Source: Cytophagales bacterium
Lineage (GTDB): Bacteria; Bacteroidota; Bacteroidia; Cytophagales; 172606-1
Direction: 5' to 3'
Length of the DNA stretch: 64,000 bases
Assembly (NCBI GenBank): GCA_030446715.1
Contig: JAUJMU010000001.1
Coordinates: 907,297 to 971,296 of the forward strand
In this document: positions 32,166-63,237 of the stretch, piece after piece
Layout: each line of letters begins with the position of its first letter
How positions within the stretch are numbered: the stretch's first letter is position 1
Notes under the pieces: generated by a model
Database searches by the model: none
What the model was told of the DNA's origin: nothing
What the model saw: the letters and a program-made list of their open reading frames with translations, nothing else
Program-made: the position numbers and the translations under genes

Positions 32166-34369
32166 AAGAATTTTTCCGATGCCTGGGATTCCCTACAGGG
32201 TACACTTGAACCGGCTGTTGCTTCGCTTTTCTGCAATGGCCAGCCTTTTTCTTTTCCCCCTGAGTATTCAGGCGCAGGATTACCCCCGGCGGGAGATAAA
32301 CCTCGACCAGTTTATTCAGGACCTGTTCGGCCAGCCCTCGGAAGACGTAAACTACGAAGACCTGTACGAATCACTCTTCCAGCTTTACGCCAATCCGCTG
32401 GACCTCAATACTGCCACCCGGGAAGAACTGGCCGCCACCTTCATTCTCTCCGAAACCCAGCTGAACGCATTTTTCCGCTACCGCGAAGCAAACGGACTGC
32501 TGCTTTCTGTGTACGAACTACAGGCGGTTCCGGAGTTTGACCTGCCTGCCATTTACCGGCTGCTGCCTTTCGTGGAGGTGCAGAACAGCCGGGCCGGTAC
32601 GCAACCGTTCTGGCAGCGGCTCGTGCAGGAGCCAAACAATGCCCTGCTGCTCCGGTACAGTCAGGTGCTGGAAAGGAAAAAGGGCTTCGCCCCCGCCGAC
32701 ACGGGTCGCAGCGGCGAACTAAACCAACGCTATCTTGGGTCGCCGGGGCAGTTGTATGCCCGCTTCCGGGTCAGCCACGCCCGCGATTTCAGCTTTGGCT
32801 TTACGCTGGAAAAAGACGCCGGGGAGCAGATCGTCTGGCAGCCGCGGACCCGCCGTTATTATTCTGACTTCATATCCTTCCACGGAATGCTGGAAAACCG
32901 GGGCCGGTGGAAAAAGCTGATATTGGGCGATTATCAGCTCCAGTTCGGACAAGGTCTGTTGCTGGGTGCCGGCTTCGTAATGGGCAAAGGCGCTGAAACG
33001 ATCACCACCACCCGTCGCAATCAGCTCGGCATCCGGCCGTATACCTCCGCCATGGAATCGGGCTACTTCCGCGGCGCGGCGGCTACATATAACATTGGCC
33101 AGTTTGACCTCACCGGCTTCTATTCGGGTATCCGCCGCGATGCGGCCCTGTTGGCGGCACCCGATACGTCGGATACTTTTTTGTCGGAGGATTTTATTCA
33201 GACCTTGCAGGTAACCGGATACCACCGGACGACGAGAGAACTTGGGGCAAAAGGAAACGTTGGTGAAAAGGTAGCAGGCAGCAACCTCAGTTACCGGAGC
33301 CGGGACAATACCCTGCAACTCGGCGCTACGGCGCTGTTTACCCGGTACAGGGTGCCGCTGATCCGGAAAAAGTCGGATTACAACCAGTTTGAATTCAACG
33401 GCCGCGACAACTGGAACGTGAGCCTGAATTACAGCTACCTCTGGCAGAACATTAACCTGTTCGGCGAAGTGGCCCGTTCAAAAGCAGTGGCATAGGTGCG
33501 GTCTCCGGCCTGATTGCCAGCCTGACGCCCCGCGCCGACCTGACCCTGCTGTACCGGCGCTACGACCGCAACTTTCACAGTTTTTACGGCAATGCTTTGG
33601 GTGAAAATACCCGCAACATCAACGAGCAAGGATTGTACTGGGGACTCAAACTAACGCCCCTGCGAAGAGTCACCCTGAGTGCCTACCACGACCAGTTTCG
33701 CTTTCCGTGGCTGAAGTACCGCGTGGATGCGCCTTCCAAAGGCTACGAATACCTGCTGCGGCTGGCCTATCAGCCCTCCAGAACGGTGCTGCTGTTTGCC
33801 CAGTTCCGGGAGGAAAGCAAAGAGATGAACCAGTCGGGCGGTACGCTGCCCATTGACTTTCTGGCGGCGGCCCGGCGGCGCAACTGGGTGCTGAACGCTG
33901 ACTACGGGGCGGGAAAAGTGATCAGTCTGCAGACCCGGGTACAGGGCAGCAGTTACCGGCAAAGCAACGGCGCTACGCATGGTTACGCCATTCTGCAGGA
34001 CGTAAACCTGAATCTGGGGAAGCTGAAGGCGAGTTCCCGCTTCGCTCTTTTCGATACCGATGACTATGACAACCGGCAGTACGCCTACGAGAAAGACGTG
34101 CTGTACGCCTTCTCCCCCTGCCGGCCTATTCCGAACGGGGCATCCGGCAGTACCTGCTCCTGCAGTACCAGCTGAGCGGTCACCTCGACCTGTGGGTGCG
34201 CTACGCCCGCACCGGACTGCGCAACCGCGACACAACCGGCTCCGGACTCGACGAGATCAGTGCGCCGCACAAGTCAGAGGTAAAGGCGCAGGTGAGGCTT
34301 TCATTTTTAGGTGCAGATTCCGTCCGCAACAGGAAACCAACCAGAGGAGCAATGTCGCTGCCAGTTTAG
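32155..34369 (+). CDS. Helix-hairpin-helix (ComEA-like) plus beta-barrel protein, frameshifted twice
   Basis: ATG at 32155, signal peptide to about residue 41 (LFLFPLSIQAQ). A ComEA-like HhH region follows (about 75-125: ANPLDLNTATREELAATF, FFRYREANGLLLSVYEL), then a long series of barrel strands (GRWKKLILGDYQLQFGQG, GIRPYTSAMESGYFRGAAA). The frame breaks at 33480-33483, where A4 would need A5 to read RSKSSGIGAVSG, and at 34114-34118, where C5 would need C6 to read FSPLPAYSERGIRQYL. With both repaired, the protein is about 735 residues and ends near 34369, or near 34308 (VRLSF) if a further T-run slip is allowed. Members of this Cytophagales group are unassigned; the HhH may be structural rather than DNA-binding. 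Confidence 0.7.
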
Positions 34370-41468: not shown

Positions 41469-42041
41469 TCAAAGGAAAAACTTCTTCCGCACAATCACTT
41501 CTTCCACCCGCTCCGGCACCAGGTACCGGATGGATTTATGCTCCCGGATGCACTGCCGGATGTAGGTAGCCGAAATATCCAGCAGCGGGGCGGCTACAAA
41601 CTTTACGTTCGGATGCTCCGCCAGCGGGCTTTTTAAGGAAGTGGGTCGGGGGTACACGTACAGGCCGTAGTATTCAAGTATCTTTTCGTAGTTCATCCAG
41701 GCAGTAAACTGGTCGAGGTTGTCTTCGCCGATGATCAGCCGGAAGGAGTGCTGGGGAAACTTTTCCTGTAAATACGTGAGGGTAGTGATGGTATAACTGG
41801 GCCGCGGCATGTGAAACTCGGCATCGGTGGCCCGCAGCCGGGGATTGTCGTCAATGGCCAGCTGCACCATATCGTACCGGTCAAATTCGTGCAGCAGCGA
41901 TTTGTTCTTCTTGAAAGGATTGTGCGGGGACACCACCAGCCACACCTGCTCCAGATCGGTATTGTAGGCCATGGTATTGGCAATAATCAGGTGCCCCACG
42001 TGCACCGGATTGAATGATCCGAAAAGCAAACCTATCCTCAA
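41469..42041 (-). CDS. nadD: Nicotinate-nucleotide adenylyltransferase NadD
   Basis: 190 residues, nucleotidyltransferase fold. Joins nicotinate mononucleotide and ATP to form NaAD in NAD synthesis. Seen: GLLFGSFNPVHVGHLIIAN with the HxGH motif (residues 17-20), WLVVSPHNPFKKNKSLL, RLIIGEDNLDQFTAWMNYE and the C-terminal ISATYIRQCIREHKSIRYLVP (ISxT/S-x-R motif). ATG at 42041. Gmk follows 94 bases upstream on the same strand, so both may be one unit. Confidence 0.93.
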   Translation of the reverse strand: MRIGLLFGSFNPVHVGHLIIANTMAYNTDLEQVWLVVSPHNPFKKNKSLLHEFDRYDMVQLAIDDNPRLRATDAEFHMPRPSYTITTLTYLQEKFPQHSFRLIIGEDNLDQFTAWMNYEKILEYYGLYVYPRPTSLKSPLAEHPNVKFVAAPLLDISATYIRQCIREHKSIRYLVPERVEEVIVRKKFFL

Positions 42042-42135: not shown

Positions 42136-42723
42136 TTATCTGACAATAAACTCATCCACCAGCTTTTGGGCCTGCGCCAGGGTATCGTCCAGGTCCTTGT
42201 TTACCAGGGTTACGTCGAACTGTCTTTCGAAGGACATTTCGAAACTGACTTTGAAGAGGCGCTTGGAAATGGAATCGTCGGAGTCGGTGCCGCGGCTGCG
42301 GAGGCGCTGCTCGAGTTCGCCCATAGAGGGTACTTTCACAAACACCGACAAGGCATTATCGCCGAAGTATCTTTTCAGTTTGAGCCCGCCCTGTACGTCT
42401 ACATCAAACAGAACGTGCTGCCCGTTGTCCCAGAGCCGCTGCACTTCTGATTTGAGGGTACCATAAAAAGCGCCTATGTACACTTCTTCCCATTCGATAA
42501 ACTCATCGCGGTCAATGCGTTGCTTGAAATCGTCGGGGGTAAGAAAGTAGTAATCTTTGCCGTGCACTTCGTTACGGCCGCGGCGGTCGCGGGTGCAGGC
42601 GGAGATAGAGAAGCCAAGCCGGGGGTCAGTAGCAAGCAGATGCCGTACAATCGTGGTCTTTCCCGACCCGGAAGGGGCAGAAAAAATAATGGCTTTGCCT
42701 TTGAAGGGGGCAGGTGAGTTGAT
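42136..42723 (-). CDS. gmk: Guanylate kinase, no canonical start codon visible
   Basis: ATP + GMP to ADP + GDP. The open frame has the full enzyme: P-loop [13 protein letters not shown], then [19 protein letters not shown] (GMP site), [23 protein letters not shown] and the lid, ending [17 protein letters not shown]. The frame reaches upstream to a TAA at about 42730, but between that stop and the P-loop there is no ATG, GTG or TTG. The codon at the place of the usual start is ATC (42723-42721), reading [14 protein letters not shown]. The GTG at 42567 is inside the GMP-binding domain and too late. So translation begins at ATC, or one base is wrong here. Confidence 0.88.
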
Positions 42724-42837
42724 AAGTGATTAAGTTATCGGGTGGAAGAAGTTGCTAAGTTAGGAGGATTAGATTAAAAAATGTTCCCCTCCCTTGCAAA
42801 CCCCGGCTCCCGATAACTTAATAACAAATGCGGCTGA

Positions 42838-43134
42838 TCAGGCAAGTTCGCCGATTTTGGATCGGATGGAACTGATTACGTCGGTTGGTACGTCTTTCCG
42901 TTTGAGGCGGTCGCAGAGGAGTTGGCGGATGGTCACTTCCAGATTGTAGTTTTCAATGCAGGGCATGCAACAATCAATGTGGTTCTGAAAGTGCCGTAGC
43001 TGGTCGGTGGTGGCTTCGCCGTCCAGTATGAGGCGGATGGCAGCTAAACATTCCTGGCGATTCTGGCAATCATTTACGTACTGGATATTTTCCTTTACTT
43101 GAATCAGTACAGGTACTTTCTTCGGCATTGACAT
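42838..43134 (-). CDS. Anti-sigma factor-like zinc-binding protein
   Basis: 98 residues. The text HIDCCMPC fits the ZAS motif Hx3Cx2C of zinc-binding anti-sigma factors (RsrA/ChrR type), and further cysteines occur upstream (NDCQNRQEC) and downstream (LLCDRL). The helical layout, with a sigma-binding helical bundle, is that of soluble group-IV anti-sigma proteins. It lies on the same strand, 270 bases downstream of an ECF sigma factor gene, its likely partner. The extra cysteines might sense redox state or zinc. The gap to the sigma gene is longer than in a tight operon. Confidence 0.75.
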   Translation of the reverse strand: MSMPKKVPVLIQVKENIQYVNDCQNRQECLAAIRLILDGEATTDQLRHFQNHIDCCMPCIENYNLEVTIRQLLCDRLKRKDVPTDVISSIRSKIGELA

Positions 43135-43404: not shown

Positions 43405-44001
43405 TTACTCCGTGTCTTCCTCGTCGTAGCCCATCGTTTTGGCGTAGCCTCTCAGCTTGTCCTTGAGCAGGTTCCGGGCCCGGTGCAGTCTCGAACGGAC
43501 TGTTCCGATGGGAATATCAAGGATTTTAGCCATTTCTTCGTAGGTAAATCCTTCAATATCACACAAAATGATCACCGTACGGAAATCCACCGCCAATGAG
43601 TTAAGCGCATTGGCCACTTCGTCACCGATCATCTCCGAAAGGGACTCGGAGCGGAGATCAGGAGTAATGTTATCAGCTTCGGCGTCTTCGGCGTTGTAGA
43701 AAGTTTCTACCTCCTGATAGTCCACCTTGGCCGGCTCTTTGCTTTTCTTCCGGTAGTCGTTGATGAAGCTGTTTTTCAAGATTCTGAACAGCCACGCTTT
43801 GGCGTTAGTTCCTTTCTGGAAGGAATTAATGAAGCGGAAGGCCTTCAGATAAGTATCCTGCACCAGGTCATTGGCATCGTCCTCATCCATGGTCAACCGG
43901 AAGGCGAAATTGTACATGGAATTGATGTGAGGCATGAACTCATCATCGAAGATTTTGTATTTCTCCTTTTCTGAGTAGTTTTGGGCAGGATGTTCCGACA
44001 T
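43405..44001 (-). CDS. ECF-type RNA polymerase sigma factor
   Basis: The ATG at 44001 (MSEHPAQNYSEKEKYKIFDDEF) gives 198 residues. Sigma-2 region: NFAFRLTMDEDDANDLVQDTYLKAFRFINSF and KAWLFRILKNSFINDYRKKSK (-10 recognition and core binding). Acidic linker, then sigma-4: LAVDFRTVIILCDIEGFTYEEMAKILDIPIGTVRSRLHRAR. Upstream in-frame ATGs exist (44019, 44103) but a promoter at 44023-44056 puts the transcript start at about 44016, so 44001 is the best start. Probably controlled by the ZAS protein downstream. Target genes not known. Confidence 0.93.
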   Translation of the reverse strand: MSEHPAQNYSEKEKYKIFDDEFMPHINSMYNFAFRLTMDEDDANDLVQDTYLKAFRFINSFQKGTNAKAWLFRILKNSFINDYRKKSKEPAKVDYQEVETFYNAEDAEADNITPDLRSESLSEMIGDEVANALNSLAVDFRTVIILCDIEGFTYEEMAKILDIPIGTVRSRLHRARNLLKDKLRGYAKTMGYDEEDTE

Positions 44002-44022
44002 AGGCTGTGATTGTAGCATGGG

Positions 44023-44056
44023 CAAAATTAAGACATTATCCGATTTTTTAAACAAA
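44023..44056 (-). promoter_or_regulatory. Promoter of the ECF sigma gene: TTTG at -33, TAATTTTG at -7
   Basis: Minus-strand TTTG at 44056-44053 and TAATTTTG at 44030-44023 are 22 bases apart. It looks like a housekeeping promoter, not an ECF autoregulated one. Confidence 0.55.
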
Positions 44057-44135
44057 GCCCCGGTTAACTGATTACCGCTCCCGAATTCTGGTGGATACCC
44101 CACTTTAACGGCATATACGCATTTTTGTTGATCCC

Positions 44136-61669: not shown

Positions 61670-62452
61670 ATGCCAGTGAAGCAATCAAAAGAATTACAAT
61701 CTGAAGAGTGGTTCACGCAGTGGTTCAACTCCCCTTACTACCACATTCTTTACAAGGACCGTGACCAGCACGAGGCCCGGTTGTTTATTGATAATCTGGC
61801 TAGATTTCTGGACTTCAGCCCTAAAAATAAAATCCTTGACCTTGCCTGTGGCCGGGGCCGCCATTCAGTGTACCTGAATTCGGGAGGATTTGACGTAACC
61901 GGCATTGACCTGTCTCCCAAAAACATTGCTTACGCCCGGCAATATGAAAATGACCGCCTGCACTTTTACGTCCACGACATGCGGGAGCCTTTCCAAGACA
62001 ATGTATTCTGCCACGTGCTGAATCTTTTCACCAGCTTTGGCTATTTCCGTACGGAAGGCGAGAATGTTAATGTGATCTGTTCGGCCACACGGGCCCTGCG
62101 GAAAGGCGGTAAACTGGTTATTGACTTCATGAATACCGACAAGATTATCAGCGGTTTGCAGCCCTACCAGGTAAAGGAGGTAGAAGGCATCCGTTTCCGG
62201 ATTTCCAAAACGGTGCAGGCCCGGGTTATTGTCAAGGATATTCACTTTGCTGACAAAGGCGGGACGTACCACTTTCAGGAGCGGGTAAAGGCCATTACTT
62301 ACGAAGATTTTTTGAGTTATTTTGACATGGCTGATCTGGAGGTGCTGCACACGTTCGGCGACTACCACCTCAACCCCTACCACCCCGACACCTCCGACCG
62401 GATGATATTCGTGACCCGCAAGCCGGATGGGGAGACTTTCGGGAAGTTGTAA
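61670..62452 (+). CDS. Class I SAM-dependent methyltransferase
   Basis: 260 residues from the ATG at 61670 (MPVKQSKELQSEEWFTQWFNSPYYHILYKDRD, given in part). Motif I: ILDLACGRGRHSVYL; motif II: VTGIDLSPKNIAYA; motif IV: HVLNLFTSFGYF. The N-terminal WFNSPYYHILYKDRD and C-terminal HLNPYHPDTSDRMIFV are typical of a Bacteroidota group related to cyclopropane-fatty-acid-like and tellurite-resistance-type methyltransferases. Substrate unknown. 38 bases upstream of the Rpn nuclease gene, but function link unlikely. Confidence 0.85.
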   Translation: MPVKQSKELQSEEWFTQWFNSPYYHILYKDRDQHEARLFIDNLARFLDFSPKNKILDLACGRGRHSVYLNSGGFDVTGIDLSPKNIAYARQYENDRLHFYVHDMREPFQDNVFCHVLNLFTSFGYFRTEGENVNVICSATRALRKGGKLVIDFMNTDKIISGLQPYQVKEVEGIRFRISKTVQARVIVKDIHFADKGGTYHFQERVKAITYEDFLSYFDMADLEVLHTFGDYHLNPYHPDTSDRMIFVTRKPDGETFGKL

Positions 62453-62490
62453 CTATTGATACCAACAGGAACAATAGTTATTTTTACAGG

Positions 62491-63237
62491 ATGAGCAACT
62501 TGGGGAAATACATCAATCCATTCACTGATTTTGGTTTCAAGAAGCTCTTTGGCACTGAGTTCAATAAGGAACTGCTGGTTGATTTTCTCAATCAGGTGCT
62601 GGGCGAGAGGGAGCAGGTCAGGGACCTGACGTACCTGAACACGGAGAAAGGAGGAAGGACCGAACGGGACCGGAAGGCAGTCTTTGACCTTTACTGCGAA
62701 AATGAGCAGGGGGAGAAGTTCATCATTGAACTGCAGAATGTGTACCAGCAGTTCTTCAAAGACCGCAGTATCTACTACGCCACCTTTCCCCTCCAGGAGC
62801 AGGCTTCCAAAGGCAGAGAGTGGGACTATTGCCTTAAGGCTGTTTACACCTACCTGGAGATGCCTAAATTCAGGAAGCAGGAGGAGGATCTTGTTACCCA
62901 CTTTGATAAGTGGATGTATGTGCTCCGCAATCTGCCACGCCTGCAGGACCGGCCGCGGAAGCTACAGGAAAAGATATTTGAGAAACTTTTTGCCGAAGCT
63001 GAATTAGCCAGACTAACCCCAGAAGATATGAGCACTTACCAGAAAAGCCTCAAAGTGTACCGCGACAACAAGAATACGATGGATTACGCTATAAAAACTG
63101 CAGTAGATGCAGCAGTAGATGCAGCTACAAGGCAAAGGAACATTGAAATTGCTCTAGAGCTGAAGAAACTCAACCTGCCCGTTGAGCAGATTGTCCAGGT
63201 AACTAAGTTGACCAAGGAGGAAATTGAGAAGCTTTAA
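62491..63237 (+). CDS. Rpn family recombination-promoting nuclease (PD-(D/E)XK transposase-like)
   Basis: 248 residues. The N-terminal nuclease fold begins INPFTDFGFKKLFGTEFNKELLVDFLNQVL and has active residues D66 (AVFDLYC), E80 and Q82 (FIIELQN), the D...ExQ form usual in this family. Helical middle (AVYTYLEMPKF, WMYVLRNLPRL). From about residue 185 a helical tail with SLKVYRDNKNTMDYAI and LTKEEIEKL. Rpn proteins nick DNA and in E. coli have been reported as anti-phage toxins inhibited by a small protein translated from inside the same gene. A matching internal ATG exists here at codon 197 (63079; MDYAIK), 52 residues to the stop. A free copy of the tail follows at 63272. Confidence 0.88.
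   Translation: MSNLGKYINPFTDFGFKKLFGTEFNKELLVDFLNQVLGEREQVRDLTYLNTEKGGRTERDRKAVFDLYCENEQGEKFIIELQNVYQQFFKDRSIYYATFPLQEQASKGREWDYCLKAVYTYLEMPKFRKQEEDLVTHFDKWMYVLRNLPRLQDRPRKLQEKIFEKLFAEAELARLTPEDMSTYQKSLKVYRDNKNTMDYAIKTAVDAAVDAATRQRNIEIALELKKLNLPVEQIVQVTKLTKEEIEKL

Follow-up and report, generated by a model that had tools for sequence, protein, structure and literature searches.

The guanylate kinase gene (gmk) of this Cytophagales bacterium very probably starts with an AUC codon that is conserved, as AUC or AUU, in two genera, and such a start, being inefficient with the CAU initiator tRNA, would keep the output of the gene low and probably make it sensitive to IF3. The AUC/AUU start codon itself is well supported by comparative sequence evidence; control by IF3 we infer. 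With this start, gmk is a new gene in the already known class of genes that begin with AUH (AUU, AUC or AUA). Starts of this type that persist across species are known from few bacterial genes, and a literature search limited to open-licence PMC papers found no report of a non-AUG gmk start.

Within the window (the whole 64,000-nucleotide stretch of DNA analysed here), gmk lies on the minus strand, in a frame that runs from an upstream TAA at 42732-42730 to a stop at 42138-42136 when read codon by codon. The codons that follow the TAA are TCA CTT ATC AAC TCA CCT GCC CCC TTC AAA, and from the TAA to the P-loop the frame offers a single near-cognate start, the ATC at 42723-42721. Codons are numbered below by counting back from the GK of the motif GK.IIFSA. 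The features of the frame are:

42136..42723, minus strand: gmk (guanylate kinase), 195 aa from the proposed ATC, identified by translation, Pfam PF00625 and a single genome match
42721..42723, minus strand: ATC, the proposed start codon, at codon -8 before GKAIIFSA; sole near-cognate, with AUH in 7/7 relevant family haplotypes
42730..42732, minus strand: in-frame TAA that closes the gmk frame upstream, from the frame reading
42652..42678, minus strand: P-loop segment APSGSGKTT of gmk, from the translation
42565..42567, minus strand: GTG, the first standard in-frame start, inside NEVHGKDYY and too late for the P-loop, from the frame reading

This reading bears out the preliminary description, which had placed the opening of the frame at a TAA near 42730, had named the ATC as the only codon at the usual start place, had found no ATG, GTG or TTG ahead of the P-loop, and had put the first standard start at a GTG at 42567 in the GMP site. 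The product matches the Pfam family Guanylate_kin (PF00625) with an E-value of 8.4e-41 over positions 2-180 of the 182-position profile. It is the single gmk match in the whole source genome (6.4 Mb, 25 contigs, 98.15% complete), and a second gmk elsewhere in that genome was rejected, as no further match was found.

The preliminary description had also called for an alignment of gmk starts in close relatives. We searched 59 genomes (the source genome and relatives), the eight genomes of the family (source genome included) and named species genomes (best 80 of 443 loci). AUH stands at exactly codon -8 in all seven family haplotypes that have no nearby standard start (five ATC and two ATT, from six of the eight family genomes), and among codons -12 to -1 it is at -8 alone that all seven carry AUH. 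The motif downstream reads GK.IIFSA, or GRTIIFSA in two of the haplotypes. The aligned relatives with ATC or ATT at this codon comprise two other species of the same genus (genus 1) and three genomes of a second one (genus 2), which favours the non-standard start over the wrong base that had been offered beside it. Neither an ATG at the start codon nor a frameshift bringing an upstream ATG into frame, the two findings named beforehand as speaking against such a start, was seen in the genus-1 and genus-2 relatives that lack a nearby standard start.

The start region in genus 1 reads TAG CGT ATC AAC TCA in G001 and TAA ACC TGT ACG CTT ATC AAC TCA in G002, with no standard start in either, and the in-frame stop lies 1-4 codons before the AUH across the genus. 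A second G001 haplotype (L111), on another contig that is gapped with N further in, reads ATT AAC TCA; this strain variant swaps ATT for ATC and leaves the start codon otherwise unchanged. The presence of two gmk haplotypes in one MAG (L111 on contig C237 with ATT, L002 on contig C570 with ATC; contamination estimate 7%) may reflect a strain mixture or a duplication. In the source locus (L001), L002 and L111, the AUH at -8 is the sole codon one base away from ATG between the stop and the GK; L003 has an ACG at -10 of the same kind besides its AUH. In genus 2 the three genomes read GCC ATC AGC, GCT ATT AGT and GCT ATC AGT around codon -8. A standard start is thus absent outright from the source locus, L002, L111, L003 and L016, and the remaining two genus-2 loci (L019 and L021) have a TTG that falls within a promoter-like box. 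Genus 3 of the family (G004 and G006) has ATG at -4, and its codon -8 is AAT or CGC. The genomes of genera 2 and 3 measure 9.0-9.8 Mb, apart from one of 4.5 Mb that is 72% complete.

We aligned gmk of the source genome, L002 and L003 without gaps, anchored at the start, and the sequence TATCAACTCA at the start is identical in the three genus-1 species. It is one of 3 fully identical 10-nt windows among 655 in this alignment; the three agree at 42 of 180 third positions and, ahead of the start, at 11 of 45 bases, a count that the lack of gaps may have lowered. Between the source gene and L002, dN is 0.114 and dS 1.44; across genus 1, dN is 0.11-0.13, and dS in the other pairs is 3.46 or beyond estimation. 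Low dN at a dS ranging from 1.4 to saturation implies that the protein is under purifying selection. The gmk AUH haplotypes are related to one another: in the gmk tree, genus 1 (94/96) and genus 2 (97/94) are each supported as groups, without a resolved order between them and genus 3, so that either a single origin of the AUH start, followed by a return to ATG in genus 3, or two origins would fit.

From 171 gmk loci, 160 distinct sequences were kept after removal of identical ones (L112, which shares its contig with L111, had been excluded in advance), and ten of these have no ATG, GTG or TTG in codons -12 to +2. Seven of the ten are the family haplotypes; the others have ATG at -27 (L007), -14 (L165) and about -19 (L206). 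The 153 distinct sequences other than these seven haplotypes all have a standard codon (ATG, GTG or TTG) in frame, either at codons 0 to +2 or no more than 28 codons upstream; 19 of them carry AUH at -8. At class level, gmk was matched in 380 of 395 genomes, and, in addition to the order-level loci, starts were read in a sample of the class made up of 30 loci and 20 fetched stretches.

The region upstream of gmk, together with its neighbours, contains the following:

42755..42762, minus strand: TAACTTAG, a possible gmk promoter, matching the Bacteroidota -7 box in 5 of 6 positions; a weak match, as 5 of 6 is common by chance
42726..42742, minus strand: 3' arm of an inverted repeat (17 nt) that stops 2 nt short of the ATC, from a repeat search and a fold
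42809..42825, minus strand: 5' arm of the 17-nt inverted repeat, from the repeat search
42838..43134, minus strand: putative anti-sigma factor upstream of gmk, 98 aa, without a Pfam match
43405..44103, minus strand: ECF-type sigma factor, with Pfam Sigma70_r2 and Sigma70_r4_2
41469..42041, minus strand: cytidylyltransferase-like gene downstream of gmk, Pfam PF01467

The Bacteroidota -7 box has the consensus TAnnTTTG. In genus 2, gmk is preceded by a perfect TATTTTTG box of this type, 27 nt from the AUH in L019 and L021 and 25 nt from the ATC in L016. Two features of the start region count against the AUC: none of AGGA, GGAG, GAGG or AAGG occurs within 25 nt upstream of the AUH in the seven haplotypes, which leaves gmk without a Shine-Dalgarno sequence, and A is absent from position -3 in all of them. 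One study reports that the absence of a Shine-Dalgarno sequence is usual in this phylum and that A at -3 favours initiation in F. johnsoniae (PMC6847099).

The inverted repeat lies within a segment (42660-42840) with a fold of -49.5 kcal/mol (z -1.91). As judged by eye, L002 and L111 retain its stem, one compensatory change included, and L003 does not; L019 and L021 have a different, unrelated inverted repeat upstream of gmk. On this distribution the repeat could be a lineage-specific structure or a terminator rather than a part of the mechanism; one possible role is to insulate gmk from the sigma operon or to terminate transcription between the two. If transcription starts from the TAACTTAG box, only the 3' arm would be present in the gmk mRNA. 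The repeat was rejected as a repeated mobile element, its 113-nt stretch occurring once in the genome, and a known RNA or riboswitch in the leader was rejected as well, with no Rfam family at gathering score in seven loci.

The 98-aa protein upstream is one that we take, from its position, to be a putative anti-sigma factor, and the gene downstream is presumably nadD. Neighbours were counted in the 127 gmk loci whose upstream sequence extends for 900 nt or more, a set that keeps duplicates and does not contain L111; a sigma factor relative precedes gmk in 105 of them and an anti-sigma relative in 100. In most of the loci examined the ECF sigma factor, putative anti-sigma factor and gmk are neighbours, and the stop of one gene often overlaps the start of the next, an arrangement that suggests that gmk is part of a sigma-factor operon. 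Starts were assigned in this count as the nearest ATG, or else GTG or TTG, within 12 codons, and as codon -8 in the family; L007 and its duplicate L039, with no start assigned, are in neither of the two gap groups. In the 84 loci where the anti-sigma stop and the gmk start are separated by -8 to 29 nt, the latter is ATG in 81 and TTG in 3; among the 14 entries (two of them duplicates) with a gap of at least 85 nt, it is GTG, TTG or AUH in 11 and ATG in 3. Weak gmk starts thus go with the loss of tight operon coupling, a correlation that is found in related genomes and arises partly through start assignment.

Several other explanations have to be weighed against an AUH start of gmk. It is very improbable that sequencing or assembly turned an ATG into this ATC. 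Frameshifts do occur in essential genes of the draft, at least in infC, which is split into two frames on contig C7, and 12 of 328 coding-like frames in a 464-kb sample of the source genome, gmk among them, have no ATG, GTG or TTG near the coding boundary; however, this gmk codon is likewise ATC or ATT in the assemblies of five further species, and on this ground a base error was rejected. Harder still to credit is the decay of gmk into a pseudogene, with GDP supplied by another enzyme. The lack of a standard start would fit such decay, but gmk is the sole match in the source genome and in seven of the eight family genomes (G001, the eighth, has it on two contigs), its product gives a full-length Pfam match, and dN/dS against L002 is about 0.08. 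Translation might instead begin at another codon, namely the TTG at -18 in two genus-2 genomes or an upstream start combined with a frameshift or stop readthrough elsewhere, with the AUH conserved on account of an N-terminal isoleucine. The in-frame TTG in L019 and L021 is indeed the sole standard start there, but it forms the end of the perfect TATTTTTG box and would therefore lie upstream of the transcript start if that box is the promoter. L016, the remaining genus-2 locus, offers no standard start along the 30 codons of its frame ahead of the GK, the genus-1 stop leaves little room ahead of the AUH, and codons -7 to -3 differ between the genera, which share only a Phe at -2 besides the AUH. 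Taken with these points, initiation at another codon appears improbable.

A stronger contender accepts the weak start and denies it a function: the AUH would be real but the product of drift after operon coupling became loose, without control by IF3 or by initiation stringency. We consider this quite possible, if short of an even chance. The association of weak starts with wide anti-sigma gaps speaks for it, as does genus 3 of the family, which does use ATG; on the other side, AUH has been kept across saturated synonymous divergence in six species, with AUG a single base away.

Under the reading that we prefer, ribosomes would start gmk at the AUC at 42723-42721, as they would at the AUC or AUU of the same codon in relatives of the two genera. 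The 57 tRNA matches in the source genome, all within loci that were scanned, include one initiator-like tRNA, with anticodon CAU (L142), and no initiator-like tRNA with a GAU anticodon (genome 98.15% complete); the Ile-GAU matches look like elongators, the initiator features having been judged by eye. An odd initiator tRNA reading AUC was rejected for this reason, and the simplest route is an ordinary initiator tRNA with a third-base mismatch. The usual CAU initiator would then read the gmk AUC with that mismatch, initiation would be inefficient and guanylate kinase would be held at a low level, and gmk would probably respond to IF3 and initiation stringency as infC does. In vitro work reports that IF3 excludes weak third-base pairs, and that the share of full-length product from AUU with the CAU tRNA fell to 31.1% as IF3 rose (PMC10158994). 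A dense array of 13 tRNA genes (L225, C14:45390-47149 of the source genome; ARAGORN), which includes Ile-TAT, Ile-GAT and a divergent Met-CAT, is possibly carried by a mobile element.

The gene infC, which encodes IF3, is the classic case of an IF3-autoregulated gene, and Butler reportedly found in 1987 that autoregulation of E. coli infC is abolished when its AUU is changed to AUG. In E. coli pcnB, a different gene in a different phylum from the gmk studied here, an AUU start limits translation. The comparison with infC drawn in the preliminary description is apt, since infC of the same family also appears to start with ATC. We located infC in seven of the eight family genomes, and in each of them a GGAGGT (Shine-Dalgarno) is followed within a few bases by ATC AAT or ATC AAC; from this conservation and spacing we infer that ATC is the start of family infC. 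An in-frame ATG lies seven codons downstream of the ATC in four of the seven (L114, L115, L117 and L119), and L118 has an in-frame GTG upstream of it. In the source genome, infC (L226, C7:331700-333200) has its ATC after AAGGAGGT and breaks into two frames at roughly codon 35, a sign of either strain variation or an indel error in the draft; its start region agrees with that of the relatives despite the frameshift further in.

Both infC and gmk are essential genes with a conserved AUH start, but a Shine-Dalgarno sequence is present in family infC and none is found in gmk, and Gmk is a nucleotide kinase, so control by IF3 would not be autoregulation. Outside infC, a study of S. aureus describes conserved starts in ccpN (AUA) and cvfC1 (AUU) with about 10% of the reporter activity of AUG in poor medium, and extended Shine-Dalgarno motifs at the AUU/AUA start sites (PMC13009471). 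The genes ccpN and cvfC1 resemble gmk in their conserved non-canonical AUH start outside infC, and differ from it in their extended motifs, in the genes concerned and in phylum. The weak gmk codon without a Shine-Dalgarno sequence is unusual because the known S. aureus AUU/AUA starts have extended ones. A strong Shine-Dalgarno sequence before a weak start, as in family infC and in the S. aureus cases, is missing from gmk, although it may not be a defining need of such starts.

If IF3 does control gmk, guanine nucleotide supply would be linked to translation initiation. A tentative and rather unlikely extension is that this family has a small regulon of AUC/AUU-start genes made up of gmk and infC, with gmk operating in it without a Shine-Dalgarno sequence. 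Were it true, the supply of GDP and GTP for IF2 and other translational GTPases would depend on the same start-codon stringency, exerted by IF3, that determines IF3 itself, and guanine nucleotide supply and translation initiation would be joined in a direct loop. The gmk start would also suggest that AUH starts can function without a Shine-Dalgarno sequence in Bacteroidota. Gene callers restricted to ATG, GTG and TTG would miss or truncate a single-copy gmk with an AUH start.

Of 608 coding-like frames scanned for missing starts in 800 kb of G005, two were flagged, including the sigma factor, which has ATG at codon 14; the scan is a weak negative, as gmk (with an in-frame TTG upstream) and infC (with an ATG a few codons in) lie inside the stretch and were not flagged. 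Some of the 12 start-less frames in the 464-kb sample look by eye like frameshift fragments. In the window, coding-like frames at 33471-34175 and 62398-63237 have no standard start near their boundary and may likewise be fragments that follow a frameshift.
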